64,000 bases of DNA, from positions 524,832 through 588,831 of the forward strand of contig NC_014014.1 of assembly GCF_000025845.1 (NCBI RefSeq). Reading direction: 5' to 3'. Below are positions 12,025 to 36,925 of the stretch, in pieces. The notes beneath the pieces are model-generated. The model did no database searches, was not told where the DNA came from, and saw nothing but the letters and a program-made list of their open reading frames with translations. Source of the DNA: Mycoplasma crocodyli MP145. Its GTDB lineage: Bacteria; Bacillota_I; Bacilli_A; Mycoplasmatales; Metamycoplasmataceae. Position numbers and translations under genes: made by a program. Position 1 is the first letter of the stretch, and each line of letters starts with the position of its first letter.

Positions 12025-12051
12025 GAACCATTAAATTTAAGTGTGTAATAG
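12025..12051 (+). repeat. ICE terminal repeat, left end of copy A
   Basis: 27 bases starting GAACCATTAAA. They are identical to 16926-16952 and match the reverse complement of 36899-36925 at 20 of 27 positions. Identity with copy B begins two bases earlier, at 12023. Confidence 0.7.
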
Positions 12052-12150
12052 AAAAGGTTTTAAGATTATCTATTTACTCTTTTTTTATTATAACATATTT
12101 TTTATTGAAGCAATTAAATATGAGAATTTTAGTAGGTGTTCAACTCTATT

Positions 12151-13416: not shown

Positions 13417-13561
13417 ATTTAAAATATCTCCTTATTTTTAATATATCTATTTTATTTCGAAAATACAGATATAAAAATAAAACATATACAAAGTATATGC
13501 TCTATATTAATATGATAATTTAAAGTATTGTTAAATTATGGTTTTTGTTTTAAGGTCTTAA

Positions 13562-15187: not shown

Positions 15188-15234
15188 TTTTTGTCTTTCT
15201 TTTAATTATTGTTAAATAATTATACTATTTAAGT

Positions 15235-15342
15235 TTAGTATTTATTTGTTTTTGATTCTTTTGGTGATGATAGTTTTATAATTAATAAAATCATTATCAA
15301 AAGAAAACTAAGAACTCAGAGAATACAAAAGAAGGTAATCAT
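15235..15342 (-). CDS. 35-residue single-span membrane peptide, copy A
   Basis: ATG preceded by AAAGGA. Sequence starts M-I-T-F-F-C-I-L-W (one TGA Trp) and forms a single hydrophobic helix followed by a polar Lys/Ser tail. Perfectly conserved in the copy at 19092-19199. It lies between the membrane-protein gene and the lipoprotein gene on the same strand. It could be a small coupling or lysis-type peptide, or leader DNA without a product. Confidence 0.45.
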
Positions 15343-15413
15343 TATTGAATTCCTTTCAAGTTAATTATTAAATTCATTTTTTATCCTTTCAGTTGATTAT
15401 AATAAATGATGAT

Positions 15414-16322: not shown

Positions 16323-16566
16323 TTTGTATTGTCAACTATTAAATTTATTACTTTTAAGAAAACTAGAATTAATAGTGGAGATACAATAAATATTAATGTA
16401 ATAATCACTCCTATGTATCCTAATTTAGTCATTAGTAGATATGATAACCAAAAGTTATTGCAGCAATAATTAAAACCATTAAGACATAAGATATATTAAT
16501 AAATATCTTTTTGTTCTTGGTTTTTTGAGTTTTGCTTTTTTGTTTTGTTTTGTTTTCAAATAACAA
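16304..16566 (-). pseudogene. Frameshifted copy of the 87-aa ICE membrane protein
   Basis: Corresponds to 20161-20424. One A is missing in the run at about 16446 (ATAACC here, ATAAACC in copy B), which shifts the frame in the first membrane span. Otherwise nearly identical. Confidence 0.7.
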
Positions 16567-16588
16567 AAGGTAATCCTATTAGTCAAAT
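16496..16588 (-). pseudogene. 3' remnant of the 94-aa ICE membrane protein
   Basis: Only the last about 30 codons of the gene found intact at 20354-20638. Homology to copy B stops at 16588, which marks the inner breakpoint of copy A. Confidence 0.7.
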
Positions 16589-16641
16589 AAATGAGCCATT
16601 AAATTACCGGTGTGGAAACCTTGAAATTAAAAGGAATTAAA

Positions 16642-16675
16642 AAAACAAACATTATAAGGTGTTTGTTTTTTTTCT
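16642..16675 (+). terminator. Hairpin terminator in the inter-ICE spacer
   Basis: Stem AAAACAAACA/TGTTTGTTTT with an 8-nt loop, followed by more T. No complete gene lies upstream on the plus strand, so its own gene has been lost. Confidence 0.6.
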
Positions 16676-16789
16676 TGTAAATAAATCAAATTTTAAAGAG
16701 GGCAGAAATCCACCCTAAAAACCATTAATAATATAGCACATAATATGTGGATTTGACTTTTTAAAATAAAAAAAATTTGGAGGTAAAAA

Positions 16790-16885
16790 ATGTCTAAGTT
16801 TAAAAAATACTTTTATGAGAGATTTATATATAAAGCTACTGAGAATGAGGTTAAAGTTCAAAATAGAGATAATGTTTTTTGATAG
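16790..16885 (+). CDS. 31-codon ORF, probably the 5' fragment of a truncated gene
   Basis: GGAGG lies 6 bases before an ATG with a basic, aromatic start (M-S-K-F-K-K-Y-F-Y). Ends at TAG after a TGA Trp. The strong ribosome-binding site and upstream promoter-like bases suggest a once real gene cut off by the insertion at 16926. Not recognised. Confidence 0.35.
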
Positions 16886-16925
16886 ATTATGCAATGACAA
16901 GAAAATATGATATGAGGAATATGAG

Positions 16926-16952
16926 GAACCATTAAATTTAAGTGTGTAATAG
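16926..16952 (+). repeat. ICE terminal repeat, left end of copy B
   Basis: Same 27 bases as 12025-12051. Outside it lies AATATGAG, which is not repeated at the right end. Confidence 0.7.
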
Positions 16953-17052
16953 AAAAGGTTTTAAAGTTATCTATATGCTCTTATTTATTATAACATATTT
17001 TTTTATTGAAGTGATTAAATATGAGAATTTTAGTAGGTGTTAAACTCTATTT

Positions 17053-17250
17053 TTATATAAAAATAGTTGGTATATTTTTTTGTAGATTAGAAAAAAAGAA
17101 CTTTCATTAATATTTGTTGTTTGTTCTATATAGTGAACTAAGGAGTTTTTTATAAGTTTTTTATAGTGGTAATTTATGTTGTTCTCAGTGTAAGAAACTA
17201 TTGCTTTTCTTATTCGGTGCTCCTGATACTGTTAAATTAACTTTATTCAT
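17053..17250 (-). pseudogene. Internally deleted transposase-like gene of copy B
   Basis: The first about ten codons (from ATG 17248-17250) are joined near 17217-17221 to the last about 50 codons of the gene that is intact at 12151-13416. About 1.08 kb of catalytic core is missing and small indels have accumulated (for example an extra TAATA near 17110). Confidence 0.8.
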
Positions 17251-17418
17251 ATTTAAAATATCTCCTTATTTTTAATATATCTATTTTATTTCGAAAATAC
17301 AGATATAAAAATAAAACATATACAAAGTATATGCTCTATATTAATATGATAATTTAAAATATTAAATGTGATAATTTAAAAATATTGTTAAATTATGGTT
17401 TTTGTTTTAAGGTCTTAA

Positions 17419-19044
17419 TTATCTCTCTGGAAAGGCTTCAAAGTCTTTATTATCAGCCTTGAATTCCCAGTTAAATTCTTTCTTCATTTTATCTACTCAA
17501 GCCTTAAATTTATCATTTATTCATTTGTCATCATAAGATTGACCTATTGGATAGCCATAGATGCTCTCAAAATTATTTTTAGTAAGGTGTGGAGCTTGAA
17601 AATAGGGATTAGGTTTCATATGATTATTTGGATACTCTTTATCTCAATATTTCTTATCATATTTTTTAGGGAATGTGGTTTTTGCATTTGGTTTTTCTGA
17701 TAAAATCTCACTTCCTGAGCCAGGAAAGAATGGGTTATGATAGGACATAAATTGATTGATTATGTTGCGTCTTGGTTGATTTGTTGAAGCTTCTACTTCT
17801 AGCAAATTTTTATATGAATCAGCCTTTGTAGCCCCATTAAATTCTTGTGATTTTGAATAAAGTGGAGAAAGGAAGTTGTTAGACATTCTTATTATCTCTT
17901 CATACATGTCCATAGGTTGGAATGATGAAGTATCATCTGAATTAACAAATATTGTGTCTGGTGCAGATGAGACATGATAAAGTGGATTAAGATATGAACC
18001 AAGGTTTTCAAACATCTTATAGTTATCATTTATAAATGGATTTATGTATTCATTTTTATCTGTTGGTGTTTTCTTTGCTTTAAACTCTGTAAATTGTTCT
18101 TTTAAAGTCTTTTCTTTGTTGTTTCCAACTGATAATATGAATTCAAGATATTCTAGATAGTAATAAATTATTTGGATATGGTAATTAGTCAAATATGCAA
18201 ATGAGTATTTTTCAGCAAGTGCAAGAACTAATGTGTAATCCATTTGCTCATCATAGTTTTCATATTTAGCAGTTGCAATATCTTGGAAAAGAAGTTTTGG
18301 TCTTATGGTTATAAAATATCTATTTATATTATTGTGTGTTGGATCAAGATTATTATCACCTTTCTCAGTAGAGTTTACTAAGAAATCTTCAATGACATAA
18401 TTAAGATAGTTTCCATATAATGTTTTAACATTAAAGGTCGAATAAACTTCACTAGGATTAGGATTTATTTTGGTTGGAGTGACTTCTTTTTTTGTGTTTG
18501 GGTCTATATAAGATTCAGCAAGAATCATCGAAGGAGTTACACTATGAATGGATTGAAACAAAGGAATTGAATCTTTAAAAGCAGTTTTATCATGTGCTAT
18601 TTGATATTTTATTTCAGTAATTTTATTTTTTAAGTTAGTTTTATGTTGGTCAGTTCAAGTGGTTAAATTGTTTTCCTTTATATATATCTCAGGCAGTCAT
18701 TTTACTCACTTTCATAATTCATCAGTACCTTGATTCTTTGAAATATCAGGAAAAGGCATTTTAGATGTTGTGTGTTCTGCTATGAACTCTTTTTTCATTC
18801 TTGATGCTTTTTGTTTTGGTGTTTCTGGAACAATAGGTTCTGTTTTTGGTTTTGTAGATTCAGAAGAATTGGAATTAGGTGTTGTTGATATAGGAGTAGT
18901 GGTTATAGATGAGTTATTGCTTGGTGGAGTTTGAGGTTTAGGCAAGTTTGGGCTTGGTTTGGGGAATAAAAAACAAGAACTAACAGCCAAAGGGCTGGTT
19001 AGTGCAAGTATTGTTGTTGGTATAAGTATTTTTTTCATTTTCAT
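17419..19044 (-). CDS. ICE surface lipoprotein, copy B
   Basis: 541 residues with lipobox V-S-S-C (Cys24), a Pro/Ser/Thr linker and a large aromatic-rich domain. Paralogous copy of 13562-15187 with very few changes. The main one is a run of consecutive substitutions at residues about 460-466. It is the last intact gene of the leftward ICE string before the deleted transposase. Surface exposure follows from the lipobox. A role in recipient contact is possible but unproven. Confidence 0.85.
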
Positions 19045-19091
19045 TTTTTGTCTTTCTTTTAATTATTGTTAAATAATTATACTATTTAAGT

Positions 19092-19199
19092 TTAGTATTT
19101 ATTTGTTTTTGATTCTTTTGGTGATGATAGTTTTATAATTAATAAAATCATTATCAAAAGAAAACTAAGAACTCAGAGAATACAAAAGAAGGTAATCAT
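19092..19199 (-). CDS. 35-residue single-span membrane peptide, copy B
   Basis: Same sequence and ribosome-binding site as 15235-15342. Conservation between copies is expected from recent duplication, so it adds little proof of coding. Confidence 0.45.
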
Positions 19200-19270
19200 T
19201 ATTGAATTCCTTTCAAGTTAATTATTAAATTCATTTTTTATCCTTTCAGTTGATTATAATAAATGATGAT

Positions 19271-20179
19271 TTATTTTTTTCTTCTTTTAAGTTTTCTATA
19301 AATTGATAATAGAAGTAAGAAGATTGGTAAAACAATAAAGATACCAACACTTACTAAATAAGCTTTTAGAAATGCTTTATTTAAGTTTTGTTTTTGTATT
19401 GTTATTGCTTCTGCAATATCTATTGTTTTAGTTCCTAAAAAGTATTGAAAATCATTAATTCTTTTTTTATCAATTAAGATGATAATTACATATAAAAATG
19501 CAATGATAAGAAGTGAAATTACATTGATTATTGAAAATATTTTAATATCTCCAAAGGCTTTTTCAAGTAGTAGTTCCATATTGAATTTGATAGTTATTAA
19601 TTCAGATTCTGTATTAACTTTTACATATTTAAATGCAAAGATTAACAGAGCAAAATAACCATAAAAAGTAAGTATAAAAATAAAAATTCAAGTTGTTTTA
19701 ATTCCTTTGAGAATTAACTTTTTATACATATCATAAAACTTAAAGTTTGCTGTTGCATCATTTATTGAATAAGCATTTCTTAACTTTTTTATAATCGTTT
19801 TTCATGAGTTAAATTCTATTGCATTTTTTATTGAGAAGTAAATAGATGTAATGGCTAAAATACTAAATAAAATATAATATCCAATATAATTAATTTTTTC
19901 TTTTTCTATTGTGGTTAAGCCAAATTGAGCAGAATTAATTATGTTTAAATGAGTTAAAAGCAATGCTGTTGTAGCCAACGCTATTAAAACTAAAAAGGTA
20001 AATCAAATGATTGAATTTATCTTTTTTAACCTTCTCTCTTTCCTTATTATTCTATATACCTTTGGGTTAATTTCTTCATTTGTGTCAAAATCCTTTTTGT
20101 TGTTAGAAAGGTTTTTTAAAGAAATTACATTAGTTATAACTTGTGTTGGTTCTGGATTATTTAAAGGTGTAAATCTCAT
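19271..20179 (-). CDS. ICE multi-spanning membrane protein, copy B
   Basis: 302 residues, about four membrane spans, basic cytosolic N-terminal segment and a K-R-R-K-K end. Its ATG lies 19 bases inside the preceding small membrane-protein gene, which supports translational coupling. Unknown function within the conserved left part of MICEs. Two spans flank a central soluble segment (about residues 115-165). Confidence 0.8.
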
Positions 20180-20424
20180 TTTGTATTGTCAACTATTAAA
20201 TTTATTACTTTTAAGAAAACTAGAATTAATAGTGGAGATACAATAAATATTAATGTAATAATCACTCCTATGTATCCTAATTTAGTCATTAGTAGATATG
20301 ATAAACCAAAAGTTATTGCAGCAATAATTAAAACCATTAAGACATAAGATATATTAATAAATATCTTTTTGTTCTTGGTTTTTTGAGTTTTGCTTTTTTG
20401 TTTTGTTTTGTTTTCAAATAACAA
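20161..20424 (-). CDS. 87-aa ICE membrane protein with TTG start
   Basis: The frame opens after TAG just upstream and the only early initiator is TTG at 20424; the first internal ATG would remove the basic N-terminus. A Lys/Gln/Thr-rich head of about 25 residues, then two hydrophobic helices. It overlaps the upstream gene by 71 bases and the downstream gene by 19 bases. The copy A version carries a frameshift. Confidence 0.6.
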
Positions 20425-20638
20425 AAGGTAATCCTATTAGTCAAATAAATATTATGGTTCCAAAGGTATAAGGAATAAGGTTAGGTTTAGTAATTGGTAA
20501 ATCTTGATTAGTTAGATTTGTTTTATAAATTGAATCAATTATCAATGCTATTATTGATATAACAAAAATTGCTATGAATATGATGATATATATTTTAGTT
20601 AGTGAAAGTTCTTTTTTGTTCTGTTTTGGTTGTTTCAT
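20354..20638 (-). CDS. 94-aa ICE membrane protein
   Basis: AGGAGAAAA precedes the ATG, 7 bases after the stop of the 1784-aa gene. Basic N-terminus (K-Q-P-K-Q-N-K-K), two membrane spans, a short loop and a charged C-terminus. Two TGA Trp codons. Copy A keeps only the last third. Function unknown; it probably forms part of the membrane complex encoded by the surrounding genes. Confidence 0.7.
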
Positions 20639-20645
20639 TTTTCTC

Positions 20646-23600
20646 CTATTTAAGTTTTTTGGCTTTAATGTATGTGTTTTTATATTTAATAATTCCAAAT
20701 ACTATTGCAGGTAATACAAAAACAAATAAAGCAACTATTCAAATAAGATGTAATGGTTGTTTTTGTATTAAACTAAATTTTGTTGGAGTAATTCCACCTG
20801 GGTTATTTGAAACATTAATAGTTTTATAGTTTATTAATTTTTTAGATAAAGCATCAATTCTAATGATTACTTTATTATCTTTGTTAGGTTCCTTAACGAG
20901 GTTATATAAAAGAATTTTGTTATCAGTTCAATTGTTAGGTGAAACTCTTTTTAATTCTTTAAATTTTGAGCCACTTATTGAATATGTTATTTGATAATCA
21001 ATTCCATTAATTCAAAAAGATTGGTTCATTTGTGTGTTAATATAGTCAATTATTTCATTATTTAATTCACTAAAATATTTATTTTGATATTTTGGCTCAT
21101 CTTTTAAATATTTATGATTAAGAATTAGGTCATCTATCTTAAGATTTGTTAAATCAAAAGAAAATTTGTTAACAAAGTCATTATAATCTTTATCATCTTC
21201 TGAAATATTTAGTTGAATGGTAAATGAAGCAAAATTAGATAATCAACTTTCAATTGGAAGTATTTTTGCATTAATTGGCTGATTAACATTTTGTAATACT
21301 AGCGTTATCAATTTATCAATCTCATTTAATGATATTTTTAGAATTTCTTCTTTTGATTTTGTAATAACAAACTGACTTATTCAATAATTTTTATTGTATA
21401 TAAGTTTAGGTTCAATATTATATTTATCAATCTCATTATTTACAAGATTTATTAATTCTTTAGCCATTTTATGCTTAAAATTTTCATCTTTTAAGTTAGG
21501 TTTACTCAATTTAATATTAAAGTTCTTTATTTTAGACAAGTCAAAAATTTTATTTTTTACAAAATTTAGAACTCTAATTTCAGGATTTTGTACTTCTTGG
21601 TATTTATTAGGTTCTTTTGGTTTAATGTTAAAAATTAAAGGTTCTGGTGGAGTATCTGTTTTATAGTTAAATGTAGGGCTTAATATTAGTTTTTTAAGTT
21701 CCTCTTTTAACTCTTTCTCTGTTAACACTTTTAAATCACTTGAATCGTCATTCGGTATTGTTATATTAATTTCATCATTTGATATATCTGATGCCAATAA
21801 CTTTGCAAGCTCATTTTTAAATAAATTAAGAATTTCTAATTCATCACTTTTATATGTTTGTAAATTTATCTCTCTTCTATCAGTGATGAAAAATATATCC
21901 TTAGCCAAGGCACTAAATGTTAGTTTTAAATCAGTGTTAGTATCTTTCTTTAGTTCATAAATTGATGATTTTAAGGAATTAACTTTTCACTTGATTTCAA
22001 TATGACCTGAATCAATGAGTTTTGTTTTAGGATTTAGTTTTGAACTAATATTCGAATCAAATTCTATAATAGTTTCAAGGTTATCATTAGGCAAATTATT
22101 AATCAACTCTCTTAATGTTTCTTTAGCATTATTTAATATTTCTTGTTGTTTGTTGGTATCAGTTATTTTGGTTCATTCTTCTTTTACTTTTGGAGATTTT
22201 ATATTAAGTTTATTTCAACTATCTAAAATAAATGCAATTTGGCTTTTATTAAGTAAATCATTTTGTTTATACTTTTCTAGTTTATTTGGTAGAGCAATAA
22301 ATACATCTAGTATTTGAAGTAAGGCATTTCAACCTGTTGATGTAGGATTATTAGTATCAAGTTCTAAAATATTTAATAATTCTTGCTCTCTAATAATTGG
22401 CTTGTGTTTAGCCAAGATATCATTAACAAGTCTTTTATAGTTTTTTTTGAAGTTTTGATAATTCATTGATTTTGCTCTATTGTTAAGTTCTATATTTATT
22501 TCTTGTGTTGGTGGAACAATAATAATTTTATCTGTTGAAAGAAGTTGCTTATTATCTGTTATATCACTTAATTTTACTAGAACAGTTTGGTGAAGGAATG
22601 CTTCAGGAATTTCTATACTTTCAATCCTTGGAAAAAAATCAAATTTTATAGCAATAGTTTTACTATTGTTTCTTGTTTCGAGGTTTGTGTTTGCTAAAAC
22701 CTTTGTATGATAATTTGATATCTTATTTAAATCTTCATTCATTAATTTAAGTTCATATAATAAGTCTTGGTCATCAGGAGACTTAAGAAGCAATTCATTG
22801 TGTTTAGTTATCTTGGTTTCAAGTTCTATTTGAGGTAAAGAAGTGTAATAATCATTAATGTTCTCCTTTAAGTGATTTTCAAAATCTTTAAAGTTATTAT
22901 ACCTTGATGCTATTCTAATCAGTTTCTCTTCCCTTACAATTGGTGTAGTAATATTTGAATTAGAAGAATTTTCAGATACATATAGTTTTCAATATTTAAC
23001 TAATATATCATATTCTAAAGAATAAGATTTTTCAGGACTAAAAGAATGAACTTTATATAAATATTCCAAAAGGTTTTTACCTTGAGGGCTTAACCAAAAG
23101 TTTGTTATATCAGGGTGAGTATCTAACTTTGGATATATTTGAACTTTTCTATTTGTTGCTAACAAGTGTGTATTGTATCTATATTCTTCACTTAGTTTTC
23201 ACTTATTAAATTCATTGTTATTGTTTGAATTAGGTAAATCATTGAAAGCTTTAAATTTGTTTCAATAATTAGTGTTGTAATCTTTAGCCATTTCATTTAA
23301 CTTTGTTGTAAAAGTATCAGTTTGTTTAAGATCATCACCAATTAATATAATTTTGAACTTATTTGAAAAATCATTAGGAAGCTTATATGAGTATAATCAC
23401 AAACCAGATGTTGAAAAGTACGATGGATTTTTAGGGTTTAAACTAATATTGGCTCCTGTTTCAGCACCAAATTCTTGTTTTAACCAATATTTACCACCAC
23501 CAGTGTATAAAGTTCTGGTTCAACCAGGTTCACTACTTAAACAGTAAAATCTTTTTAATTCAAGATGGTCATTATTTGGAATTGTTAACAAGACGGCTTT

Positions 23601-26000
23601 AGGTATAACTATGGCTTCTGCAAGAAAACCAAATACTTGTTTATTCTTATCTTCATTAAATATTTTGGGGTCTTGTAAAAAATAAGTGCTTTCAATTTTT
23701 TTGTGTTGTTGATTTGACTTTTTGTTTGAATAATTATAAATAGTTCCTGGTAAATCACTTCATTCATTTGTTGCATTAACTCAAACAATTTCTGTTGTGG
23801 TTCCAGTAGTAGGGTTTATGTTAGGGTTATACTTTGGGTTCTTTATTTCATTGCCTTCTTCATCTTTCAAAGGTTTGTTATCTTTATCTGTTAAAAAAGG
23901 AGAAATTAGAAGTTTTTGTTCTATGTTATTTTCCGGGTCTCAAGCATATCATTTTAAATCTAGTAATGTTGATGAACTATCTTTTATTATGATATTTCTT
24001 GTATATTTACTTTCTATTTTATCTGTTAATAGACCATTTATTCCATTTTTTTCATATCTAATTACTTCTATTTTATAAACATTATCACCAAGTGAACCAT
24101 CATCATTCTTTATGAAAGAAAAATCTTCAAGAGGAATATTTCATTGATGATTAATTAAATCATGTTCCTTATCATTGATTTTAATCTTTATGTTATCTAA
24201 ATCAGTTCCTATAAGGCTAACTTTAACTTGTGAATAAAATTGATATGTATCTTCATCTGGTTTTTCTTCAATATGGTCACCATTATCTTCTTTAACTTCA
24301 AATTCTTGGGTTGTCTTATTTCACTTTTTATACTTTGAACCAGTTGTTTTCAACATTTGTTTTAAGTTTCTTTTCTTAAATCTTTCAGTTGGTATTCAAT
24401 TTACTTTGACATTTGAAAATAATACTTTTGATGTTTTTTGTTTCCTATAAACATCATAGTATTCTAAAATAATGTCAATCTGGTTAGGTATATTAGAATT
24501 ATTTTGAGATTTGGATTGCTGTACTTTAATTTTGGAATTAGTTTCAACATTTTTCATATATTCAAACCCAATTGTTGTTTCAACCATATAATTTCTAAAT
24601 GAAATAATTTTTTCATTTATGTTTTTGGTTATATTTTGTTCCAAATAGTTTCTGAGATAATAATTAATTATTTGCTGATTACTTAATAATTTGTTTTTTT
24701 CATCTGCAAGTTTGTTTAATTTACTTAGATATTCAGAACTATCTGATGTATTCTTAATTATTGTATCTAAATCATTATTTAATATGCTATGTGATTCAGT
24801 GGGTGAATCTGTAATATCTGATGCTCCAACATCAGTAGGTAAATCAATTGTGTTTGATTTATAGTTTAAAATTTTAGGTAGTTCAATAGTTTTTATTAAA
24901 TTAGATAATTCTTTATCTCTATTGTTTGGTTGTGGGTCATCAAAAATAACTTTAAAGTTTTTTAAAAAAATGTGCTTTTCATTTGGTGTTGATTTGTCAT
25001 ATAACAAAATGTTAATTGTGTTTTCATCTACTGTTTCATAATCAAATTTCAGTGGATTATTATCACTATTGAATGATTTTATGTAGTCATTTAACTTCAT
25101 TTTGTTAGTGGTCTTATCAGAATATGAACTGTTGATAGTTGTACCATAGCAGTTATAAAATATTTGTTTTTTTGATTCTGCTTTCTTTTTTCAAGTATTT
25201 ATATGTGTATTTCAATGGTTAAAGTTATTTGGTGTTATGGTTTTGGTTGTTTCTTCAACATAATCAATTGTTCATTTATATTTATTTAAATAATCATATT
25301 TGTTGGGTGATGATGATTTTCAAGTAGAGTCTTTTCATCTTATGACTCACGCTGGGTCAGTGGATAGTATCAATTTAGCACTTATTACTTTTTTATATGG
25401 ACCTATAAATGGTGCATTTGTAGGAAAGTTAGCGCTATATAAAGTTAATGGTCAATAATCTTGTCCTAAACTAAAGCTTTCACTCAATGGTTTTGAACTT
25501 ATTTGGTATTGGTTTATAAAATGAAATTTCATATCTCTTGGGTCTGAATCAAAGTGGTATACATACTCTAAAACAGAATCCATATTTCTATATTCATCAA
25601 ATGTATATGCAGGACAAACTGGTATATTAGCTATTACATTACCAGAAGATGATTTAATTTTAAATCATAAGGATCTGTTGTCTTTTTCATATGTAAAATA
25701 AGTGTATTTATCAGATGATAAATATTGATTTGTCTTTTTTCAGGTTGTGAAGGATTTATCAATTTGATAATTGTAGTGGGTTATAGGAATAGATACCGTG
25801 TTATAAAACATTTCATCTATTGAACCTTCAAGAGTATAAGTTCCAGGTTCTTTATCTTTTCTTGTTGTTTGGCTTCATTGATAAGGAATGGCTTCAAAAT
25901 CATTGTTAGACAATGATGATGAAACTCCAAATGGAATGGTTAATAAAGGTAATGAAACCGATGTTAAAACTAAGGTTGGTTTAATTATTTTCTTTTTCAT
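20646..26000 (-). CDS. Giant ICE exported protein (Mbov_0399-type), 1784 residues
   Basis: One continuous frame when TGA is Trp (more than twenty TGA codons). N-terminal signal-like helix after M-K-K-K-I-I-K-P without a lipobox Cys, a long extracellular part rich in Asn, Tyr and Trp, and one C-terminal membrane helix before K-N-T-Y-I-K-A-K-K. This gives a single-span protein with a roughly 1700-residue ectodomain. It starts within the end of the 92-aa gene (20-base overlap) and is followed closely by two small membrane proteins. Position and size match the large protein next to the conjugation ATPase in MICEs. It may act in mating-pair contact; that is inference. No enzymatic motif seen. Confidence 0.82.
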
Positions 26001-26259
26001 TAATTTCCTTATTATCCTTTACACCAGCACTTTTCATTTCAGCTTGAAATTTAATTATTATCAACTTAATACTTTCTATTACCATTTCATCAAGTGAATC
26101 AGTAATAACTACATTTGATAAAGCATAAGAAATTTGGTTTACTTTAAATCCTAATTTTTTCAATGTTTTACTTAATTGTTTTAATTGAGGATTTAGTTCT
26201 TCTTTTATTTTTATAAATTCATTCGATATCTCTTTATTTGTTAATTGTTTTTTAGTCAT
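25981..26259 (-). CDS. 92-aa ICE protein (Mbov_0398-type)
   Basis: Helical, charged, without membrane segment or signal. GGAGA site before the ATG. Overlaps the ATPase end by 8 bases and the giant gene start by 20 bases, so all three are translated as one unit. Conserved at this place in MICEs. Function unknown; a cytosolic partner of the ATPase is plausible. Confidence 0.75.
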   Translation of the reverse strand: MTKKQLTNKEISNEFIKIKEELNPQLKQLSKTLKKLGFKVNQISYALSNVVITDSLDEMVIESIKLIIIKFQAEMKSAGVKDNKEINEKENN

Positions 26260-28930
26260 TTAATGTCTCCTTATCTTTAAATATTATTTTTCTTTCAAAG
26301 TCATTGTAGTTCATCTTACATCTGATTTTATAACCAGTTGCAGATGAAAAAAGTAATTGACCTTTATGAGCTCTTAATAAATATTCTTGTTCTGGTGCAG
26401 TTATAAATTCATTATCATCTTCAACTTTATTTGAAGGATTATAAAGCCTATTAATATGCCTTATGTCATCTCCGGTTTGTTTAAAGATGAAGTTATATTG
26501 AATATTTTTAAGGATTGCATTTGTTTTGTTTATTAAGTCTTGACTTAATGCAAAGTCAGCTGGATTTTGAGTGGTTAATGTTATTGAACCATTGTATTTT
26601 CTAATAGTTTTTGTGGTTTGGAATAGAAAGTCCAAAGTTGCCATATTATTCTTATCTACAAAGTAATGTGCTTCATCAACTATCAACATTGTTTTAAGTT
26701 TAGAAGTATAAAAGTTGTAATTTATCTTTGTTTGGATATAGTTTAGTAATTGATAAAAAGCCAAGTTAAGTGCTGTTGTTGATTTATTATCAGTTAATAC
26801 TTTTGTATCTATAATAATAAAATCTTTATTAAGGTCAATGTTTGTGTAATTGTTATATGTTTTAGCATATATACCATTATTTAAGAAATTTACAGTTAAA
26901 TAGTTCTTTAATCTTATTCTCTCCGGTTCATAAATAGGAGCTTCAGATTTATTGAATTTCATGTCTATAATGGTTTCTATTAATTCTGTTATTCTTGGGT
27001 ATTCATTATTTTCTAATTTTGATATATCCTTATTTAGATTATAAAAGTTATATTTTTTAGAACCATACAGACTTTTCAATGCAGTTATTATTAAGTATTG
27101 ACTGTCTTGGTTTAATTCTGGATTTAGTATTTTAAATCATTCAATAATTTTGTTTATCTGATTTGATAATAAAACTTCATTTGTTAATGTAGTTTCATTT
27201 GTATTATCATCTCTTATAGCCATATTTATTTGTAATGGATTAAGTGCTGTTTTACCGGTTCCTAAATCTATCCAAGAAGCATTGGTGAGTTCAGTTAAAT
27301 CTCCATACTCTCTTTGTGGATCGATAACAATTATTGAAGCTTTATCATTATAGTAGGAATTAAGCATCAATTTTTTCATTGCTGTTGTTTTACCTGAACC
27401 TGAAAGTCCGAAGAAAACACAGTTTGAATTTATGTGGTTATTATTTCTTTTTCAAATGTTCAAGAGTATAGGGTTTGCATTTCTCATGGCTCATATAAAG
27501 TTATTTTTGTCATCGTATTCTTCATTAATAAAAGGTCAGCCATATGCTAGATTTCTTGATACCATTTCAGTTTGGTTTTTTGAGTGAAAACTTGGTGTAA
27601 AAGTAATCATATTAAGTCCATCAAATTGCTTAAATACCAAATGATTTAAATTACTTTTTAGAGTTGCAATGTTTCTTTTGTTTTGTTTTTCCATTTCCTT
27701 TAAGTTCTGTGGTGTAGCACCATAAGAAATAAAATAGAATGATGTATTAAACAATTTTTGACCTTGTGAAAGAGTTAAATCTGAAGTTTCTTCAATGGCT
27801 TCTAATTCTAATTGTGCTTTTCTTGTTCTGTATGATGACTTATTATCTAAAACCATATTTGTTTCAGCATTTAAAGCTGACTTATCTATTAATTTTGCAT
27901 AGTTTTCACTTGGTATTTGATGAATATTTCATATAACAGTTGATTCTGTATTAAATAAATCTTGTATTCAATAATAAGGAATGTCTAGAGCATATTCATC
28001 TATTGTTTGTATTGAAAAATAATGGTTGTTATATTTAATGTGTGTGTTATTAATTGTGAGATTATTTGGCGCTAAATATTCATGTGGATTTTTAATTAAA
28101 TCTTTGTTTTCAAATTTATTTTGATCTGGTACTGCATCAAAAGGACTATAAATGGTTTTGTGAAAATATAATAACTCTAATGAATTTAATTCACAAGGGT
28201 TAAGGTTTAAACTGTTTAAGTTATGTAATAATTCACCTTCATAATCATTTAATTGTTGCACTGAACTTGCATAAATTATTACATAATAGCAATCTCTAAA
28301 TTCCTTTTCAGATAAAGCAGTAAAGTCTTTTTGAGAGGCAAATTGATATTCTTTATAATCTTTAGACATTCCAGGTTTCTTAATATTTTTTGAAATATCT
28401 TCTAATATATGATTATAGTCAGTTGGCTCTGTTCTTTTAATGAATGTAATAAAAAATGGTGTTTGGTCTAGAATTTGTAGAAAATGATTAATAAAATTTT
28501 CTTTTTCATTTTCGGGTCTATTAACCACATCATAACCTGTAAATTTATATACTTTGTATAACTGTGATGATGATAAATAAACAATATTATTTTTTATTTC
28601 TTTTATTCTAATGAGTGATTTTGTGTTTGCTACTTTTGATGAACTTGTATATTTATTGTTTGATAATATGAATTTAATAAGTCTAACAAGTACCAGCCAT
28701 AATCTTGCACTATGCTTTTTAACATTAATAAATAATGGTAAGAAAAGAATTGTAATTGAGATAAATATTAATGTTGAATATGTTGTATAGTTTTGATTAT
28801 CTTTTGATATTATTGTAAAACCAATTAATGCACTTATTAGTAAAGTCATTAGGAATACAACTAAATCTCATAAATTAAAGTTTTTATAAATTGTAGTTTT
28901 TTGTTTTTTTAAATTTTTTGGTTGTAGCAT
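26252..28930 (-). CDS. traE: Conjugal transfer ATPase, VirB4/TraE family (Mbov_0397-type)
   Basis: 892 residues. Powers assembly of the type IV secretion channel. The N-terminus has two membrane helices (about 24-75). Walker A is G-L-S-G-S-G-K-T-T (about 508-516) and Walker B is M-L-I-V-D-E-A-H-Y-F (748-757), followed by the T-T-Q-N-P sensor segment typical of VirB4. Seven or more TGA Trp codons. GGAGAATAA site before the ATG, 18 bases after the preceding gene. Most conserved MICE gene in the window and the best marker that the element was conjugative. Confidence 0.93.
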
Positions 28931-28948
28931 TTATTCTCCTTAACATAT

Positions 28949-30388
28949 CTATTTCATTTTTGAAATTTTTTTAATTGCTTCATTAAATGTTTTATCTTCT
29001 TTTTCTTTTGCTTTCTTTTGTTTATTTTTATTTATTAATTCTTTCTCTTTTTGAGTTGCTGTTTTAGGTTTTGCTTCTCCTTGTTTTATTCAATTTTTTC
29101 TCAACTGTGATTGATTCTTTAATGAATCATTATCTGTTTTTCCTAATAATTTTGTCATTTCATTGTATGTTTTCTTTCTATCTTTGTTTCAGGTTCCATC
29201 TAGTTTTGCACTTCTTTTTAGATTTTGTAATGTTTTAACATGGTTGAAACTTGCTCCTGTTCTTTTGGCTATAAGTGCTGTGTTTGCACTTCTTAACCCA
29301 GACATGACTGAACTACCTGCTTTTCCTGCAAGTGGTTTTATTCCTTTTGAGGCAATTAAACCAGCTCCAGATGTTAAAGCACCAGCAACAGCTCCTGTTG
29401 CAAATGTTGCAGCTTTTGAAAGTCCTGGAGCCATTCCTTTGACACTCATGTCTTCTCCAATCATTTTTGAAATAAGTTGTTCCAACGCAAATCCTGCTGC
29501 TGTTGAACCAGCTATAATAGCAAGAATAGTTATAAATTTAATTGAAGAATTATCTGATAATGGATTATTTTGAGACATATAATCTATAAGTGGAATGAAT
29601 AACAAAATGAAAACATTTTGAACTAAAACAATAGAATAAATAGCGAAAGTTTTACTTAAAAACAATTGTTTTCATTCAGAAAATTTTTTTCCGTTGTCTA
29701 ATAAAATGGTGGCTGATACAAATGGAGCAAGAATAAATAAAAAGTATTGTTCAAATGATTTAATAAAAACAGTAAGAGTTTGCTTAAAGAGTAAAGATAG
29801 AACAAAGAATACTGCAAAGAATATTGATGTAAATGCAACAAGTCCCTCACCTCAATTCAATTTTGAATAAGCATTTTTATCTAAAACATCAAAACCTGAA
29901 GCATTAATATCTCATTCTTTTCTTATTGTTTCAGTAGGGCAAAGTGATTTATAAATTCTTTCAGCTACATTTAGTTTTCCACCAAGAACCATTTTTAAGA
30001 GTATTTCAAATAAATTAAGTAATGATATTGCTAAAAAGAAGATTACTGGTAGTAAAAAAATTAATGCTATTGCGGGGATACTCTTTTTTAATTTACTAAA
30101 AAATTCAGCTCTATTTTCACCTGTGGATGACTTGGTAAATTGAATGAGTGATATAAAGAAGAACATAAAAAATAATATAATTGTTAATATTCCCATTGCT
30201 ATATATGGCTGTGGTACAAGCATATCCTGCAATGAATTAATCTCAGGTTTACCAAAAAGTATAAGGGTTGGTATTTGTTTTACTATTACATTAAATAATT
30301 TGAATACTGATTGCAATATTAATAAAGGTAATTTAGCAAATATATGCCAGAACATACTAAATATGCCGTGTATTAAGGAATTAAACAT
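28949..30388 (-). CDS. ICE multi-spanning channel protein (Mbov_0396-type, VirB6/TrbL-like)
   Basis: 479 residues with about seven membrane helices up to residue 270, an Ala/Gly-rich segment (about 300-345) and a highly basic, Lys-rich cytosolic tail of about 100 residues. This layout (several spans, Gly/Ala stretch, charged tail) fits VirB6/TrbL-type channel components; assignment rests on layout and position. One base after the pilin-like gene and without its own Shine-Dalgarno, so coupled translation is likely. Confidence 0.85.
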
Positions 30389-30389
30389 A

Positions 30390-30752
30390 TTATAATCTAA
30401 CTAAATTTAGCAGTTCTTTTGGTGAGTTATTAACTAATGCTGTGGCTTTATTTGCTAATGTAACTGATACAGCAATTCCAATACCTACTAAAGCAACATT
30501 AACTCCTATTAATATTCCTATTGTTATAAGATGAGTTTTCTTTTCTGCTCTTACTTGGTGATCACTGGTTCTTGCATAACCGATAGTGTGTCAAATAGCT
30601 AAACCTATTAAAAGTAATAAAACAAGTGAAAGAAATCCTGTTATTACCGATGATAAAATAGGATACAATTGACCTTGAATATCAGTTATTATATTTGTAT
30701 TTGGTAGCTCTTTTGTTGAATCATCAAATAATTTTGTTGCGAATTCTATCAT
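30390..30752 (-). CDS. Pilin-like conjugation protein (Mbov_0395-type)
   Basis: 120 residues with two strongly hydrophobic helices separated by a short charged loop (R-A-E-K-K), the VirB2/TraA pilin pattern. N-terminus about 30 residues, soluble. AAAGGAG lies 8 bases before the ATG. Its start overlaps the preceding 80-aa gene by 7 bases. In a wall-less cell it would form a membrane ring rather than a long pilus (inference). Confidence 0.8.
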
Positions 30753-30988
30753 TGTGCATCTCCTTTCATATATTGTGGGTAATTTGATTTTATGTAGTTT
30801 TCAATGTGAGAATGTAGTAATCCAAATTTAGATTTAACTACATAATCAGCTATATCATCTAAATCTTTAATGTTGTTAATTTCGTATTCATAACTAATTA
30901 AAGCCTTAAGTAACTCAAGATCATTTTGTTTTTGAAGTCATCTTTTGATTTCAAAATAAGTTAAAGTATTTTTTATTTTTTTAGACAT
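30746..30988 (-). CDS. 80-aa ICE protein, unknown
   Basis: Strong AAAGGAGA site before the ATG. Charged, mostly helical, no membrane segment. The last sense codon is TGA (Trp) immediately before TAG. First gene of the transfer string: upstream lies a 130-base AT-rich gap with a TATATATC stretch that could hold the promoter. Not recognised. Confidence 0.7.
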
Positions 30989-31120
30989 TTGTCTCCTTTA
31001 TGTTTTAATTATTTGATATATATCTATATTTTATTTTCATTAATATTTACAATTTTTAAATATTAATTCCTTTACTTAATATGACATTAAGTGATTAAAA
31101 AGATTTTGAAACCTTGTTTA

Positions 31121-31609
31121 TTATTTTAATATTTGTTTTTCTAGATAATATGTTGTTGTATATGTATATTTGTTTTTAGCGTTTATGCAATCATCAAATG
31201 AAGATAAAACTTTTTGTTTAGATTCATCTAACAATTTTGGTAATTCCATAAAGTTCTCAAGAGAAATATATGGAATAAAATCATCTTGCTTTATAACAAA
31301 AACACTTCTATAAACAGGTGCTAATCTGATAAAGTCATAATATTGAAACTCCAATAGATTATTATTGTTGTAATGTGGTTTCTTATCAATTGGTAATAAG
31401 TAAAAATGCTTATCAGGTGCTGGAAAGACAAATAATAAATTTCCAAGTTTTAGTTTATATTCAGATTTATTAATTTTATCTATTAATTCTTGTTTAACTT
31501 TGATTATTTCACCATATGGAAAATTCTTTATTTTATTTGATTTGACTATTTTTTTTAATTGCTTTATTAATGAATTATTTTTTGGTTTATAAGTTATTCT
31601 TAATTTCAT
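31121..31609 (-). CDS. 162-aa ICE protein, unknown
   Basis: ATG at 31607-31609 (a TTG two codons earlier is possible) inside the end of the preceding gene, with a 23-base overlap. Mixed alpha/beta composition with F-V-F-P-A-P-D-K-H-F-Y-L-L-P-I in the middle. No membrane segment. No family recognised. Last gene of the replication-side string before a 130-base gap. Confidence 0.7.
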   Translation of the reverse strand: MKLRITYKPKNNSLIKQLKKIVKSNKIKNFPYGEIIKVKQELIDKINKSEYKLKLGNLLFVFPAPDKHFYLLPIDKKPHYNNNNLLEFQYYDFIRLAPVYRSVFVIKQDDFIPYISLENFMELPKLLDESKQKVLSSFDDCINAKNKYTYTTTYYLEKQILK

Positions 31610-32027
31610 TTTCAACTTGATTTATCTTATCAAGTTTGCAAATTCCAACAGATATTGCATTAATACCTTGCTTAGGAATTTGTAGAGATAAATTAGAACT
31701 TTGCAATGAACGCAATACTTTGTTAGATTTTAAGCCTGAATTAATTCAATAATTTGAAGCTATAATTAAATAGCCAGGTTCTACAATCATTCAATATTCC
31801 AATCACTTGGACTTAGTTGTTTTTGCTTTAAAACTATTCACCTTGTTTATAGGCCTAAAAGTTTCATTTTGTTTTTTCAAATAGTTTTCTAAAAGTATAT
31901 TTGTTATCTTTTTTAATAATGTTTTATTGTTGATTTTTGTAGGTGTAATATCTTGATTTGGGAATTCTCAAGTGAATAATAAATCAAAATTTCCTTGTAT
32001 TAAATCTTGTTTTTTTATTTTAGTCAT
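31587..32027 (-). CDS. 146-aa ICE protein, unknown
   Basis: Four TGA Trp codons, three clustered around residues 77-97 (S-K-W-L-E-Y-W; S-N-Y-W). Basic N-terminus (M-T-K-I-K-K-Q). Start chosen because it gives the long frame; another ATG 5 bases upstream ends after a few codons. Overlaps the following gene by 23 bases. Function not recognised. Confidence 0.7.
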
Positions 32028-32038
32028 TTCATTCTCCT

Positions 32039-32478
32039 TTAAGTTGTTGGTCTTGGTATCATATTTAACAATATTGGTAGTTTATTATTTCATGGTTCTA
32101 ATACTTCAATTTCTTTCATAAGAACTTGGTATTCAGAATGTGGAGTAATTTCATAGTAATTTATTTCTTGTTCTCCATTATTCGTTATGTGATTAAAGAA
32201 TTTAGCACTATTTATTTTAATCATGTAATTAAAATCAACAAATTCCTTAGGATTATCAGGGCTTGAAAGGGCTCTTTCAATTTCAATAATCTCTTTTGAA
32301 TCATCTTTTTCATTGCAAACATTAAACAAATAACAAACATTTTTTTGTTTAGAATTACAATTACTTTATTAGTAAGTTGTAAGTTTGCTTTTTTATTTAT
32401 GGTTTCTATTAGATTTGATTCTTTAGGAATTTCTATAATAGATAAAATTGGTATTATGTTTTTGTTTTTTGCAGCCAT
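32039..32478 (-). pseudogene. ICE gene with a frameshift at an A7 run
   Basis: An AAAGGA-preceded frame starting M-A-A-K-N-K-N-I-I-P runs to a run of seven A at 32340-32346. The natural continuation (N-V-C-Y-L-F-N-V-C-N-E-K-D-D) is in the -1 frame and extends to TAA 32039-32041. Joined product about 146 residues. Could be a broken gene, a phase-variable gene, a transcriptional or ribosomal slip site, or a sequencing error. Both halves look coding and fit the spacing to their neighbours. Confidence 0.65.
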
Positions 32479-32549
32479 CTGCTTCCTTTACTATTCTTGT
32501 TTGTTTAATTATCTGTTTCAAATAATTTTGGTTGTTAATTTGATTTGTC

Positions 32550-32999
32550 TTATTTTGGTAGTTTGTTAGTAATATTGCTTTGCTCTTGTGGTTCTCAGTC
32601 CATTTGAGCTGAGTCTATAAATTGATTATTGGATTCTGGTGGTAAATTAAATTCTTCTACATTATCAAAAATTGAAGTTTCATCAATTTCTTTAAGACTT
32701 AAACAATTAAATGCTTTCACAATAAAGCCATATTTTTTAATTGTTGTATCACTATTTTCTATAGTCTTAAAATATGATGTAAATGCTGCTTCAATTGCAA
32801 CAATACTTCTCGGTTTTGCTTCTGAAATGTTTCTTGCTAAGTGTCCCCAAGCAATGCAAGGAACAAAATCAACAATGTTTTTGTTATAACCTTTTGTTAT
32901 AACTTCTAAATTAAAATTTACATAGTCAGCTCCATTAGTTGCTATTTTTAATTTAATGTTCTTTGGTAAAATACCTAAAAAGATTGATTTATTAATCAT
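32550..32999 (-). CDS. ssb: ICE-encoded single-stranded DNA-binding protein
   Basis: 149 residues with an N-terminal OB fold (starts M-I-N-K-S-I-F-L-G; F-V-P-C-I-A-W-G-H-L-A-R near residue 50) and an acidic tail. It would protect single-stranded DNA during transfer or replication. Chromosomal SSB is separate (1337). Start chosen at 32999, which has GAAGG 6 bases upstream; a frame extension of six codons exists. Overlaps the preceding gene by 8 bases. SSB genes are standard MICE cargo. Confidence 0.85.
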
Positions 33000-33801
33000 T
33001 TTTGCCTTCTTTCTCATTTTTTGCTATTTGATTTGTTAAAGGGAAACTATCAAGTAATTCATTTCTAATTTTGGTTCTTAAATTTTCTATAATATGAGAA
33101 TCCATTTTTATTCTTTCTCTTGTAGCTCAATAATTTTCAAATTCAATATCTTTTAATTTTGGGTTATCTCTGTTTGGTGGGAAAATAATAAGAAATTTAA
33201 TATAAATTGGTAATTTTTTCTTACTGAATGTTTGAGAAATTTGTTTTAATATCTTTATTTGATCTGCTAAGGTTAGCGAAGCTGCAATTGCTTCTTTTTC
33301 ATCTTGGTGCAAGTCAACCATTCTCTTAAACGCTTCTGTTGAGATTGAGAAAACAGAGTTTACATAAAGTTGTTTTCTAATCCTTGCTTTACTATTAAAT
33401 ATTTGATTAGATTTAACTGGGTTTTTAGGAACTCTTGGTGAGAATTTAATAGGTATAAAGTAAGTTGTTCCTTTTTCTTCACCTATTACTAAAACACTTG
33501 AATTTTGAAGGAAAAGTTCACTTGTTTGTCCATTGTGTTTCATAACTATTGTTTGAGTAAATGTTTGATTTATTTTTTCTAATGTTTTTGGTATTCATGA
33601 AACTTGTTTTGGTGCTCCATAAGTATTTTCGTTAGTAATATCTTTTTCTATAATGTTATTTATAGCCAAAAGACTTTTGTTGTTTAATCTCAATATTTTA
33701 TAAATTGGGATGTTTTGTGCTTGTTTTGATGGTAATTCAGGGTCAAAAACAATTAAATCTTTGCTCTTGCTACCACTTAAAATATTTTCAATGTTATCCA
33801 T
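32992..33801 (-). CDS. 269-aa ICE protein, unknown
   Basis: Continuous across two TGA Trp codons. Soluble. Central part contains G-E-E-K-G-T-T-Y-F-I-P-I and a basic P-R-V-P-K-N-P-V-K-S segment; C-terminus is highly charged. Overlaps the SSB by 8 bases and the preceding gene by 8, so SSB and this protein are probably made together. It could be a DNA-handling partner, but no motif proves this. Confidence 0.72.
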
Positions 33802-34312
33802 TGTTTGTCTCCTTTTGTAGTTTTTTAATTTTTGTTTTAAGTATGTTAAATTCAGCTTGTGCTTGAATCTTTATTGGTTCAGGGAATATATTTTTTGGAT
33901 AATAATCATTAATATATTCACCTGTAAATTTAAGATTATTTAGTTTAAAGATTTTCTCTAAAATAAGCTCATCTCTTAAATGGTTATTTCTATAATTTTG
34001 GTAATATAATTCACCAGTAATAGTTAAATAATTAATTAAATGTTCTACTTCATTGCTTACTAATTCAGCAAAATAGTCATCAATTAATCAGCATATTTTT
34101 TTATTTATCTCTAAATTTTCTGGGTAGCCAGGTATTTCAGCTAATTCATTTATTTCATTTGGTGAAAACTCAAGATATTCAAGATATTTATTAATAATTC
34201 TATGTGGGTTATATTCTAATGAATATGCAACTGATTCAATGTGATTAATATTATTGTTTGTATCGATATCCTTAAAATACTTTGCATATTCTTTAATATT
34301 TTTTTTGGGCAT
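33794..34312 (-). CDS. 172-aa ICE protein, unknown
   Basis: Acidic to neutral helical protein starting M-P-K-K-N-I-K-E-Y, one TGA Trp at about residue 75. No signal or membrane span. Overlaps the 269-aa gene by 8 bases. Lies 17 bases after the DprA-like gene. Not recognised. Confidence 0.7.
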
Positions 34313-34329
34313 ATAAATTTTTCTCTTTC

Positions 34330-35088
34330 TTAATTTGTTTTGTTATCAATAAGATTCAACATACTAATTGAAGTTATCAAGTTTGCTCCTTGTTTAATAA
34401 GCATATTATTTCCATCATCAATTTCTATACCAGGAAAACAATCAACTTCTTTTCCTATATTCATAAAACAACCAGCAAGGTTAAAAATTTTGCTTTCTTT
34501 TTTAGATGAAAATACTATAAGTTCATTAGCTAATGCTGCTAATAGTAAATTTCTTTCCTTAAAACTTATTATTTTAGGTTTTGTAAGTGGTGGATATTGT
34601 GATATCCATAAATCATTGTCAACTTCATTATTTTTGTTTAATTCATCATTTCAACAAAATCCATTTGCAAAAATTCTTATTATTGGTTTATTAAATTTTT
34701 TATATTCATCAACAATTCTTTCATCAAAACCTTTGAAGCCATTTGTAATTAATTGAATATTTTTAATAGCAACATCCTTATTAATTATGAAATGTGCTAA
34801 AGATTTTTTATTAACAAGATCTCCTGTCAAACAGTAAATATTTTTCTTTTTAATTAATTCATAATCACCTTTGTAAAATAATACATATGGTGGATATTTA
34901 TAAATTAATAACTTGTCTGGATAGCCTGAATCAATAAAAGTTATATATTTAATGTCTTTTTGTTTTAAGTATTCCTTAATTTCTTTAAGTTTTTCATTAT
35001 CAATTGGAATGGTATTTTTTATAGACATAAATACCTTGAAATTGTCCCCGTTATTTAATCATGAGTAGTAAAGTAAATAATCATTCAT
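34330..35088 (-). CDS. DprA/Smf-like DNA-processing protein of the ICE
   Basis: 252 residues. D-S-G-Y-P-D-K-L-L followed by Y-P-P-Y-V-L-F-Y-K-G-D is the entry signature of the DprA Rossmann-like domain, and N-L-A-G-C-F-M-N-I-G-K-E-V-D-C-F-P-G matches its later A-x-P-G region. DprA loads RecA on single-stranded DNA. Here it may process incoming ICE DNA (inference). The true start is 35088 (AGGAGAAAA site); an internal Met 20 codons later would lose the N-terminus. Two TGA Trp codons. Confidence 0.82.
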
Positions 35089-35378
35089 TATTTTTCTCCT
35101 TTTGTTGTTTTTATTGCGCTTCCAGCGCAGCAATCAAGTTAGATTTAGAGAATTGCTAAGTTATAACAAAGTCATATCTATTAGTAAAGTGGGTGATTGA
35201 AAGTTTTTTTATAGAAGAGAATGAGATGTTTTTTTAAATCCCTTACCACACCTAACCACTATCTTAGGTGCTAAACCACCATAATATGTTTCCATAAGGT
35301 TTGTTAGCATTCTTCTATTTTTTATATCTTTATCAATGTTGTTATTAAATATAGGCTACTTGTTAGCCCAGTTGATAA
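35089..35378. other. Hairpin-rich non-coding region inside the ICE (candidate oriT, origin or RNA)
   Basis: 290 bases without an ORF between the polymerase-like and DprA-like genes, otherwise tightly packed. Three stems are visible: GCGCT/AGCGC with loop TCC (35116-35128), CACCTAA/TTAGGTG with an 8-nt loop (35249-35270), and GGCT/AGCC with a 7-nt loop (35354-35368). GC-rich islands contrast with surroundings. None is followed by a T tract, so these are not ordinary terminators. Confidence 0.5.
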
Positions 35379-36851
35379 TTACTTTCTTTCAATAACATTC
35401 CTATTTGTAAATTGTGTTGGTTCAGGAGTAAGGTGTGAATATTTTCCTGTAAGTTTAATCCCTTTTTTTCTTGCTTCATTTTGAAGGTATATCTCAAAAC
35501 TTGACTTGATTAAGGACCTATCTTTTTCATCACCATCTAGAGGCTTAGGTATGCCTGTTGGCACTTCCTTATAAATTCCCTTTGCTTCTAACTTGTAGTA
35601 ATTAGCAATTGCATGGTGGAACTTTGGTGTTATTGATGTTTGAAAGTATTCTTTTATATTTAATATTAGTTTTTCATCAAATGGTATCATTACACTGTCA
35701 AATATTGTTATGCAGTTATATTGGGTTGCTGTATCATTAATGTGATCAGCTTCTATTTCTTGTAATAAACTATTTTGCATCTTCTTATCTGGGTTTCTTT
35801 TGTATTTAATAATGAAGTCATAGAAATCCTTGTGATATTCCTTAAAGTACTGCATTATAGGTAATTTAAGCACAGCAGAAATGTTTTGTTGATATAAAAT
35901 ATTTGCTATAAAATGTGTTTTAAATTTGCTTCTAGACCAAGGTTGTTTTTTGGTCATAAAGTTATGTCTAAAATTCGGATTATTAATTAATTTATTTAAT
36001 AAATTATCATAAAAACCTTCATTTTTAAATAACTTTGCAAATTCTTCATCAGCACCTTTTTCTTTAAAAAAGGCATTAGTAAAAAGGATTACCTGGCTTG
36101 ATTTTAAATCAAGTTCAATAACCATTTTGTTGTCTATCAATACAGTTTGTCTCATTAATTTAGGCATTGATGTAAATAATGAGTATCTTCTTTTCTTAAT
36201 TCCTATTGTGTGGTATTTGAATGAATTGGTACCAGAAATTTGATCTAACTTTCTTAGGTTAATTAATCAACTATCTAATCTTCTATTGATTACTCTATAA
36301 TCAGAATAAGCCAAATCTATTAATTCTTCAAATGTTTTAAAGTTCTTAATACCCTCAAATTTTTTGTTAAATGTTTTAAGCATTAGCTTTTCATCATATG
36401 ATATTGTTCCAATTGTTTGTGTACAAACAGTTCTCTTCTTTGATGTAGAAATAATTTTGTGTTTCTTATCAAGGTTAAAGGTCATAATAGTATCTATATA
36501 TCAGTCAGGAGTAAAGTAAATATACTTTGTTCTTCCCATTCTTCCATAGAAACCTTCTGAAATATAGTGTTTGCTTCTAAAAATTAATTTTCTTTCAATA
36601 AAAAAATCTAGTAAATCTAAGTAAGATAATTTAGAACTTTTATATTTATTAAATTTCTTTGAAGAAATAGAACATTTAGATACTAATAATCTTTTTTCTT
36701 TTTGCTTTCCTTTAACTTTATTGTTTATATTTTTTTCAGCAAGTCAATATAAAAGTGCACCAAATTCAAGTAATTTGGTTTTTTTCTTTTCATCTAAATC
36801 ACTATTTTCGATTATTTTATAAATATGCAATGGTAGTTTAGCTTTAGTCAT
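35379..36851 (-). CDS. ICE end protein, replication-type, with family-A-polymerase-like motifs
   Basis: 490 residues. First gene of the ICE at its right end, behind an AAAGG site. N-terminal about 215 residues are basic with helix-turn-helix-like segments. From residue 229 on there are motifs in polymerase-A order: V-I-E-L-D-L-K-S-S-Q (D248, Q253; compare motif A D-Y-S-Q), a basic helix R307-S-K-F-K-T-H-F-I-A-N-I-L-Y320 (compare the O helix ending in Y-G), and T-I-F-D-S-V-M-I-P (D385; compare motif C H-D-E). This suggests a divergent palm-domain polymerase or initiator. Motif reading is mine; no family is confirmed. Position resembles CDS1 of other MICEs. Confidence 0.7.
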
Positions 36852-36898
36852 TTTCTTGCCTTTCAGAGCAAATAAAAAAACAATTGGTTTTCCAATTG

Positions 36899-36925
36899 CT
36901 ATCACACATTTTGTTTTAATCATTC
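36899..36925 (-). repeat. ICE terminal inverted repeat, right end
   Basis: Reverse complement begins GAATGATTAAAAC and ends GTGTGATAG. It matches the left terminal repeat at 20 of 27 positions, with the outer GAA, ATTAAA and TGTG blocks conserved. Confidence 0.65.

Follow-up and report, generated by a model that had tools for sequence, protein, structure and literature searches.

What does the gene at the end of the integrative and conjugative element (ICE) of Mycoplasma crocodyli MP145 encode, and could its product copy the DNA of the element? The gene, here called P0001, lies in a window of 64,000 nucleotides (NC_014014.1, positions 524,832 to 588,831; coordinates below are those of the window unless stated otherwise), taken from a genome that is a single contig of 934 kb and in which TGA is read as Trp. 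A preliminary description of the sequence had pointed out that D-L-K-S-S-Q, a basic helix ending in I-L-Y, and I-F-D-S-V follow one another like motifs A, B and C of a family-A polymerase palm. Our analyses suggest, with a probability of roughly 0.6, that P0001, the first gene of the ICE, encodes a divergent, short, exonuclease-less family-A polymerase resembling divPolA2, which most likely makes DNA on the element. divPolA2 is a phage protein group described in 2024 under the title "DNA polymerase swapping in Caudoviricetes bacteriophages"; it is known from Barbavirus, Vibrio and Aeromonas phages, and its function is unknown (PMC11348598).

A Protein Family Sharing the Polymerase Motifs

The frame of P0001 is open for 490 codons under translation table 4 and broken under table 11, and it contains three TGA codons (W36, W117, and W195). 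The start is most likely the ATG at 36851, with AAAGG upstream, while an alternative in-frame ATG at 36923 falls at or outside the element end. The motif positions given earlier fit this frame, with DLKSSQ beginning at D248, SRSKFK at 306, ILYQ at 318, and IFDSV at 383, which places the second aspartate at D385.

In single-sequence searches P0001 is an orphan, for which Pfam, NCBIfam, PADLOC and PDB give nothing meaningful. Matches to BaeR and methionine aminopeptidase were judged to be chance, as were the matches from an order-wide search (G136), which are sited beside ATPase genes. PHROG 19907, a family of unknown function, matches P0001 solely in the motif A region (E 0.0013), and no match was found to other MICE (mycoplasma ICE) genes. 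The gene was not found in 60 other genomes of the host genus, 28 of which carry TraE-bearing elements. Searches of about 1,350 genomes returned a sole close homologue, P0002 from Mycoplasmopsis agassizii PS6, which belongs to another genus of the same family; it is 32% identical to P0001 over 398 residues (E 2e-25) and retains all three motifs, in the form of LEVDLKSSQ, TRAQVKYLFIANGLY, QNAEAE and IYDSV. A genome-collection scan using the P0001/P0002 alignment gave no matches; run with P0002, it returned the M. agassizii record.

The entry point to more distant relatives was a weak P0001 match (E 0.6) in a 735-kb phage, which led to a family of 387–422 amino acid proteins from huge phages (66 loci in IMG/VR and 6 database records), to which two Hymenobacter plasmid proteins also belong. 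Compared by hhalign, the P0001 and P0002 profile matches that of the phage and plasmid proteins over residues 221–411 with a score of 95.6 (P 3e-12), against a best score of 22.1 among 100 column-shuffled versions. The alignment with the phage and plasmid relatives has 13 invariant residues, including R221, R234, D248, S252, Q253, Y281, K311, K351, Q364, E367, D385, and S386 in P0001 numbering. Every member carries the Arg of a GR..T stretch, an R, D(I/L)..SQ, a Y, two K, Q..E, and DS. At 17–25% identity, all members keep both aspartates, the Lys of motif B and the Q/E helix, and the motif B Arg is common. The pattern pointed out in the preliminary description is beyond chance: residues at its motifs are among the few that never vary in a family with M. 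agassizii, phage and plasmid members. One phage contig, of 174 kb, has a gene for the RuBisCO large chain (PF00016, E 8e-32; L143:1281-2510) near the polymerase-like gene.

The phage and plasmid family in turn matches divPolA2 (hhalign score 68.8; shuffled maximum 21.0), and P0001 and P0002 do so directly, with a lower score of 33.1 (shuffled maximum 21.7). divPolA2 itself matches DNA polymerase I (P 7e-7) with the motif A Asp, the R-x3-K and the motif C Asp in register. Since divPolA2 matches both, the sequence gap between the family and DNA polymerase I is closed. No match to the Pfam DNA_pol_A model (PF00476) was found, and a viral-contig scan with one divPolA2 protein gave no matches.

Predicted Structure

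A palm domain was the structure expected from the preliminary description, and the AlphaFold2 models agree with it. The model of a phage representative, built from 34 sequences, has a predicted local distance difference test (pLDDT) score of 89. In Foldseek it retrieves family-A polymerases, including the apicoplast DNA polymerase, a PolA (E 1.8e-5, probability 1.00), and by VIA-align it superposes on Bacillus (Bst) DNA polymerase I with a Z-score of 14.8 over 256 residues, spanning positions 126–397; every one of its 50 best structural matches is a DNA polymerase. Among viral models, a structure search picked up several phage proteins of 400–450 amino acids, one of them from a Barba phage, as well as a protein that carries the name putative DNA polymerase I (E 4e-38).

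The model of P0001, built from its own sequence and 31 phage relatives, is good in most of residues 231–350 and 381–410. In it the motif A strand ends at D248, the helix with R307 and K311 corresponds to the O helix, Q364 and E367 lie on the helix preceding a beta-hairpin, and D385 is found in the hairpin turn, an order and placement of secondary-structure elements as in a polymerase palm. Family-A DNA polymerases or mitochondrial RNA polymerase make up 49 of the top 50 VIA matches in the PDB, covering residues ~217–415, and the best is T7 DNA polymerase, with a modest Z of 6.4 over 178 residues that is under the safe level of the tool and was obtained with a model built with phage sequences. 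Because of that modest value and the aid from phage sequences, the structural weight rests on the phage model together with the sequence link. Taken together, this region of P0001 very probably adopts the family-A polymerase palm fold.

Proposed Role and Alternatives

P0001 starts ~70 bp inside the left end of the ICE and is its first gene. In M. agassizii, too, an otherwise complete MICE begins with such a gene, P0002. A relaxase-like gene that encodes the stretch PHSHIYFFEK comes immediately after it, followed by ArdC, TraG, single-strand binding protein (SSB), CDS16, TraE and CDS19-type genes, so that a P0001-type gene heads two ICEs that are only distantly related. A role in replication is inferred because P0001 is the first ICE gene, in the same place in two ICEs, with SSB and DprA in its operon, and because the host genome has no PF00476 match. 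P0001 is thus a good candidate for the enzyme that copies the DNA of the element. The more specific role suggested in the preliminary description, that of a replication initiator or primase-polymerase, is speculative.

By homology, D248 and D385 would hold two metal ions in the palm, and R307 and K311, on the O-helix-like helix, would bind the incoming nucleotide. The N-terminal region probably binds DNA or replaces the thumb; its resemblance to a winged helix is suggested by sequence pattern only, and no alignment above chance was obtained with the N-termini of the phage family and divPolA2. From its setting, the protein would most likely make DNA on the ICE itself when this is single-stranded or excised, for instance by priming or finishing the second strand once the element has been excised or transferred, while the SSB and DprA of the element might handle single strands beside it. 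That P0001 is an active polymerase appears likely from its conserved residues, whereas its action on ICE DNA in the proposed way is a more tentative suggestion, which we rate somewhat below even odds. Bolder and unlikely is the idea that it is a self-priming, DNA-binding, minimal family-A polymerase of a conjugative element and begins second-strand synthesis for the transferred strand at the end of the element; if true, it would be an initiator-polymerase of a kind that no ICE is known to have, and the divPolA2-like group would gain its first function.

Several observations weigh against a DNA-synthesizing polymerase dedicated to the element. Compared directly with PolA by hhalign, the family scores 22–26, within chance (shuffled maximum 25–26), and the P0001 model has a pLDDT of only 57.6 overall. 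The canonical motif A DYSQIE is DLKSSQ in P0001, with the steric-gate Glu changed to Gln; the motif C His is Phe or Tyr in the mycoplasma proteins (FDS/YDS vs. HDE), and the Phe/Tyr-Gly of the O helix is not kept in them. No exonuclease domain match was found in the 490 residues. Judged by DLKSSQ, FDS/YDS and this missing match, P0001 is not a canonical DNA polymerase I. Gln253 presumably stands where DNA polymerase I has the Glu that keeps ribonucleotides out, and therefore a preference for deoxyribonucleotides or ribonucleotides is not predictable. Neither iterons nor an origin were found near the gene. Further, P0001 was not found in most MICEs, so that MICEs in general can do without it.

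It is conceivable, albeit unlikely, that P0001 is a single-subunit RNA polymerase or a maker of RNA primers, which transcribes the ICE or supplies it with primers. This possibility was also put forward for divPolA2 by its authors (PMC11348598), motif C of the phage relatives is HDS as in T7-like RNA polymerases, and mitochondrial RNA polymerase is among the matches of both models, tied with DNA polymerases in the case of P0001 (Z 5.6–5.9). However, the 50 best structural matches of the phage model, which is the better one, are DNA polymerases without exception, and no N-terminal domain of the type known from single-subunit RNA polymerases was recognised in P0001. It is less probable again that the polymerase is cargo that serves repair or lesion bypass and has no part in copying the ICE: in both ICEs the gene leads the conserved operon and is not in a cargo region, even though phage divPolA2 genes have varying neighbours and accompany a normal replicative polymerase (PMC11348598) and the nameable neighbours of the huge-phage genes are not replication genes.

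In classical MICEs the slot directly upstream of a MobL-type relaxase gene is filled by CDS1 (233–310 amino acids), which is reported to be essential for ICEA transfer and to be of unknown function (PMC6030558). CDS1 appears to contain a helix-turn-helix-like pattern, and the mycoplasma proteins depart from PolA at several canonical residues, so P0001 might have kept the polymerase fold without its activity and, like CDS1, to which it is unrelated, solely bind DNA as a regulator or initiator. We regard this as rather improbable, since the two catalytic aspartates, the motif B Lys and the Q/E residues are invariant, and P0001 was rejected as a CDS1 homologue (hhalign P 0.83 and 0.87). The empty single-sequence searches in Pfam, PDB and NCBIfam would also be expected if the motifs resembled those of a polymerase by chance in a different fold, which the profile, shuffle and fold results strongly disfavour and which we consider very improbable. 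A divPolA2-like polymerase making DNA on the element is our preferred reading.

The Element and Its Genes

Coordinates of the element and of P0001 with its parts are collected in Table 1. The boundaries of the ICE were set by comparison with a second copy in the same genome (~347097-349761 of the genome; L077:7098-9762), which has large internal deletions and keeps both termini, as well as ~100 codons of the P0001 gene, including its start.

Table 1. Features of the M. crocodyli ICE and of P0001, in window coordinates
Feature	Position	Strand	Remarks
ICE, approximate extent	12022..36919	.	Right end near 12022, left end near 36919; ends placed by comparison with the internally deleted copy; terminal inverted repeats, imperfect: ..ATTAAATTTAAGTGTGTAATAG / ..ATTAAAACAAAATGTGTGATAG
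P0001, 490-residue divergent family-A polymerase-like protein, first ICE gene	35379..36851	-	TGA = Trp
P0001 N-terminal region, residues 1-218	36198..36851	-	Basic; low model confidence; winged-helix-like pattern at ~residues 62-115
P0001 palm/fingers region, residues 219-415	35607..36197	-	VIA-align range 219..415 on T7 DNA polymerase; hhalign range 221-411
P0001 motif A, E246-L-D248-L-K-S-S-Q253	36093..36116	-	Predicted metal-binding Asp, invariant in the family; Gln at steric-gate position D+5
P0001 motif B / O helix, S306-R307-x3-K311 ... Y320	35892..35936	-	Family alignment, hhalign
P0001 helix with Q364 and E367, counterpart of the PolA Q849 helix	35748..35768	-	Family alignment, hhalign
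P0001 motif C, I383-F-D385-S386-V	35691..35705	-	HDS in phage relatives; family alignment
DprA-like protein, second ICE gene	34330..35133	-	PF02481, E 5e-18
SSB, same operon as P0001	32550..33017	-	PF00436
TraE/VirB4 (CDS17)	26252..28930	-	
Putative DDE-type transposase position (CDS22), right ICE end	12151..13416	-	Position only; no Pfam transposase match

Downstream of P0001 and in the same direction are the DprA-like gene, two unknown genes, and genes for SSB, CDS15/16-like membrane proteins, TraE/VirB4, a CDS19-like protein and lipoproteins. Neither TraG/VirD4 nor MobL genes were detected in the ICE (12022-36919), and TraG was also not found elsewhere in the genome. The right end of the ICE is duplicated inside the element (12016-12312 and 16918-17214), as is a pair of lipoprotein and membrane-protein genes (13562-16322 and 17419-20179), a pattern that resembles a nested or tandem second ICE end. 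Just outside the left end lies a large AAA_11/AAA_12 helicase-like gene (37459-40791, + strand).

The gene directly 3' of CDS1 in classical MICEs (17–18 loci) encodes a stretch of conserved residues, H.N...PHxHL.F.EK, and several of these genes pass the Pfam MobL cut-off (best E 1.4e-16). Copies of the gene are found at L055:10970-12244(-), L037:14724-16019(-), L060, L036, L064 and other loci, and also at L075:17441-18634(-). From these sequence features, the gene looks like the relaxase that the MICE literature examined does not assign. That literature assigns no polymerase either, in agreement with the preliminary description.

Comparison with Known Systems

CDS1 of ICEA, ICEF and ICEHo shares with P0001 the first-gene position upstream of a relaxase gene, but it is shorter, has no palm motifs, and shows no detectable homology to it. 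Plasmid replicases of the PrimPol type (pRN1 ORF904) and RepA_N initiators may be comparable as element-encoded initiators with a polymerase, although their folds and motifs differ. Single-subunit RNA polymerases (T7, POLRMT) belong to the same fold superfamily and have the HDS-type motif C of the phage relatives; however, they are much longer, and their N-terminal domain has no counterpart seen in P0001. With DNA polymerase I (Klenow, Bst, T7 gp5), P0001 has in common the predicted palm fold and the sequence in which motif A Asp, R-x3-K helix, Q helix and motif C Asp follow one another, whereas it lacks a detected exonuclease domain, has shorter fingers, and carries Gln for the steric-gate Glu and FDS/YDS for HDE.

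The members of divPolA2 are ~420–435 amino acids long, with a palm carrying motifs A, B and C, no exonuclease, no recognisable PolA thumb, and an unrelated N-terminal domain. As far as its sequence can tell, P0001 answers to this description in its short, exonuclease-less PolA-like palm, its own N-terminal domain, its length and layout, and the profile link. By contrast, divPolA2 is phage-borne and only ~14% identical to the family, its motif C varies (HDS, FDE), and the N-terminal domains are not alignable. Short exonuclease-less PolA relatives have thus already been described in phages, while the lead-gene position in conjugative elements and the presence on plasmids appear to be unreported in the literature searched. 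This extends divPolA2-like proteins from phages to plasmids and conjugative elements, in which it may be less difficult to learn what they do, and a PolA-like enzyme at the ICE end, in a host without another PolA polymerase, offers a single testable candidate for the copying of the ICE after excision and transfer.
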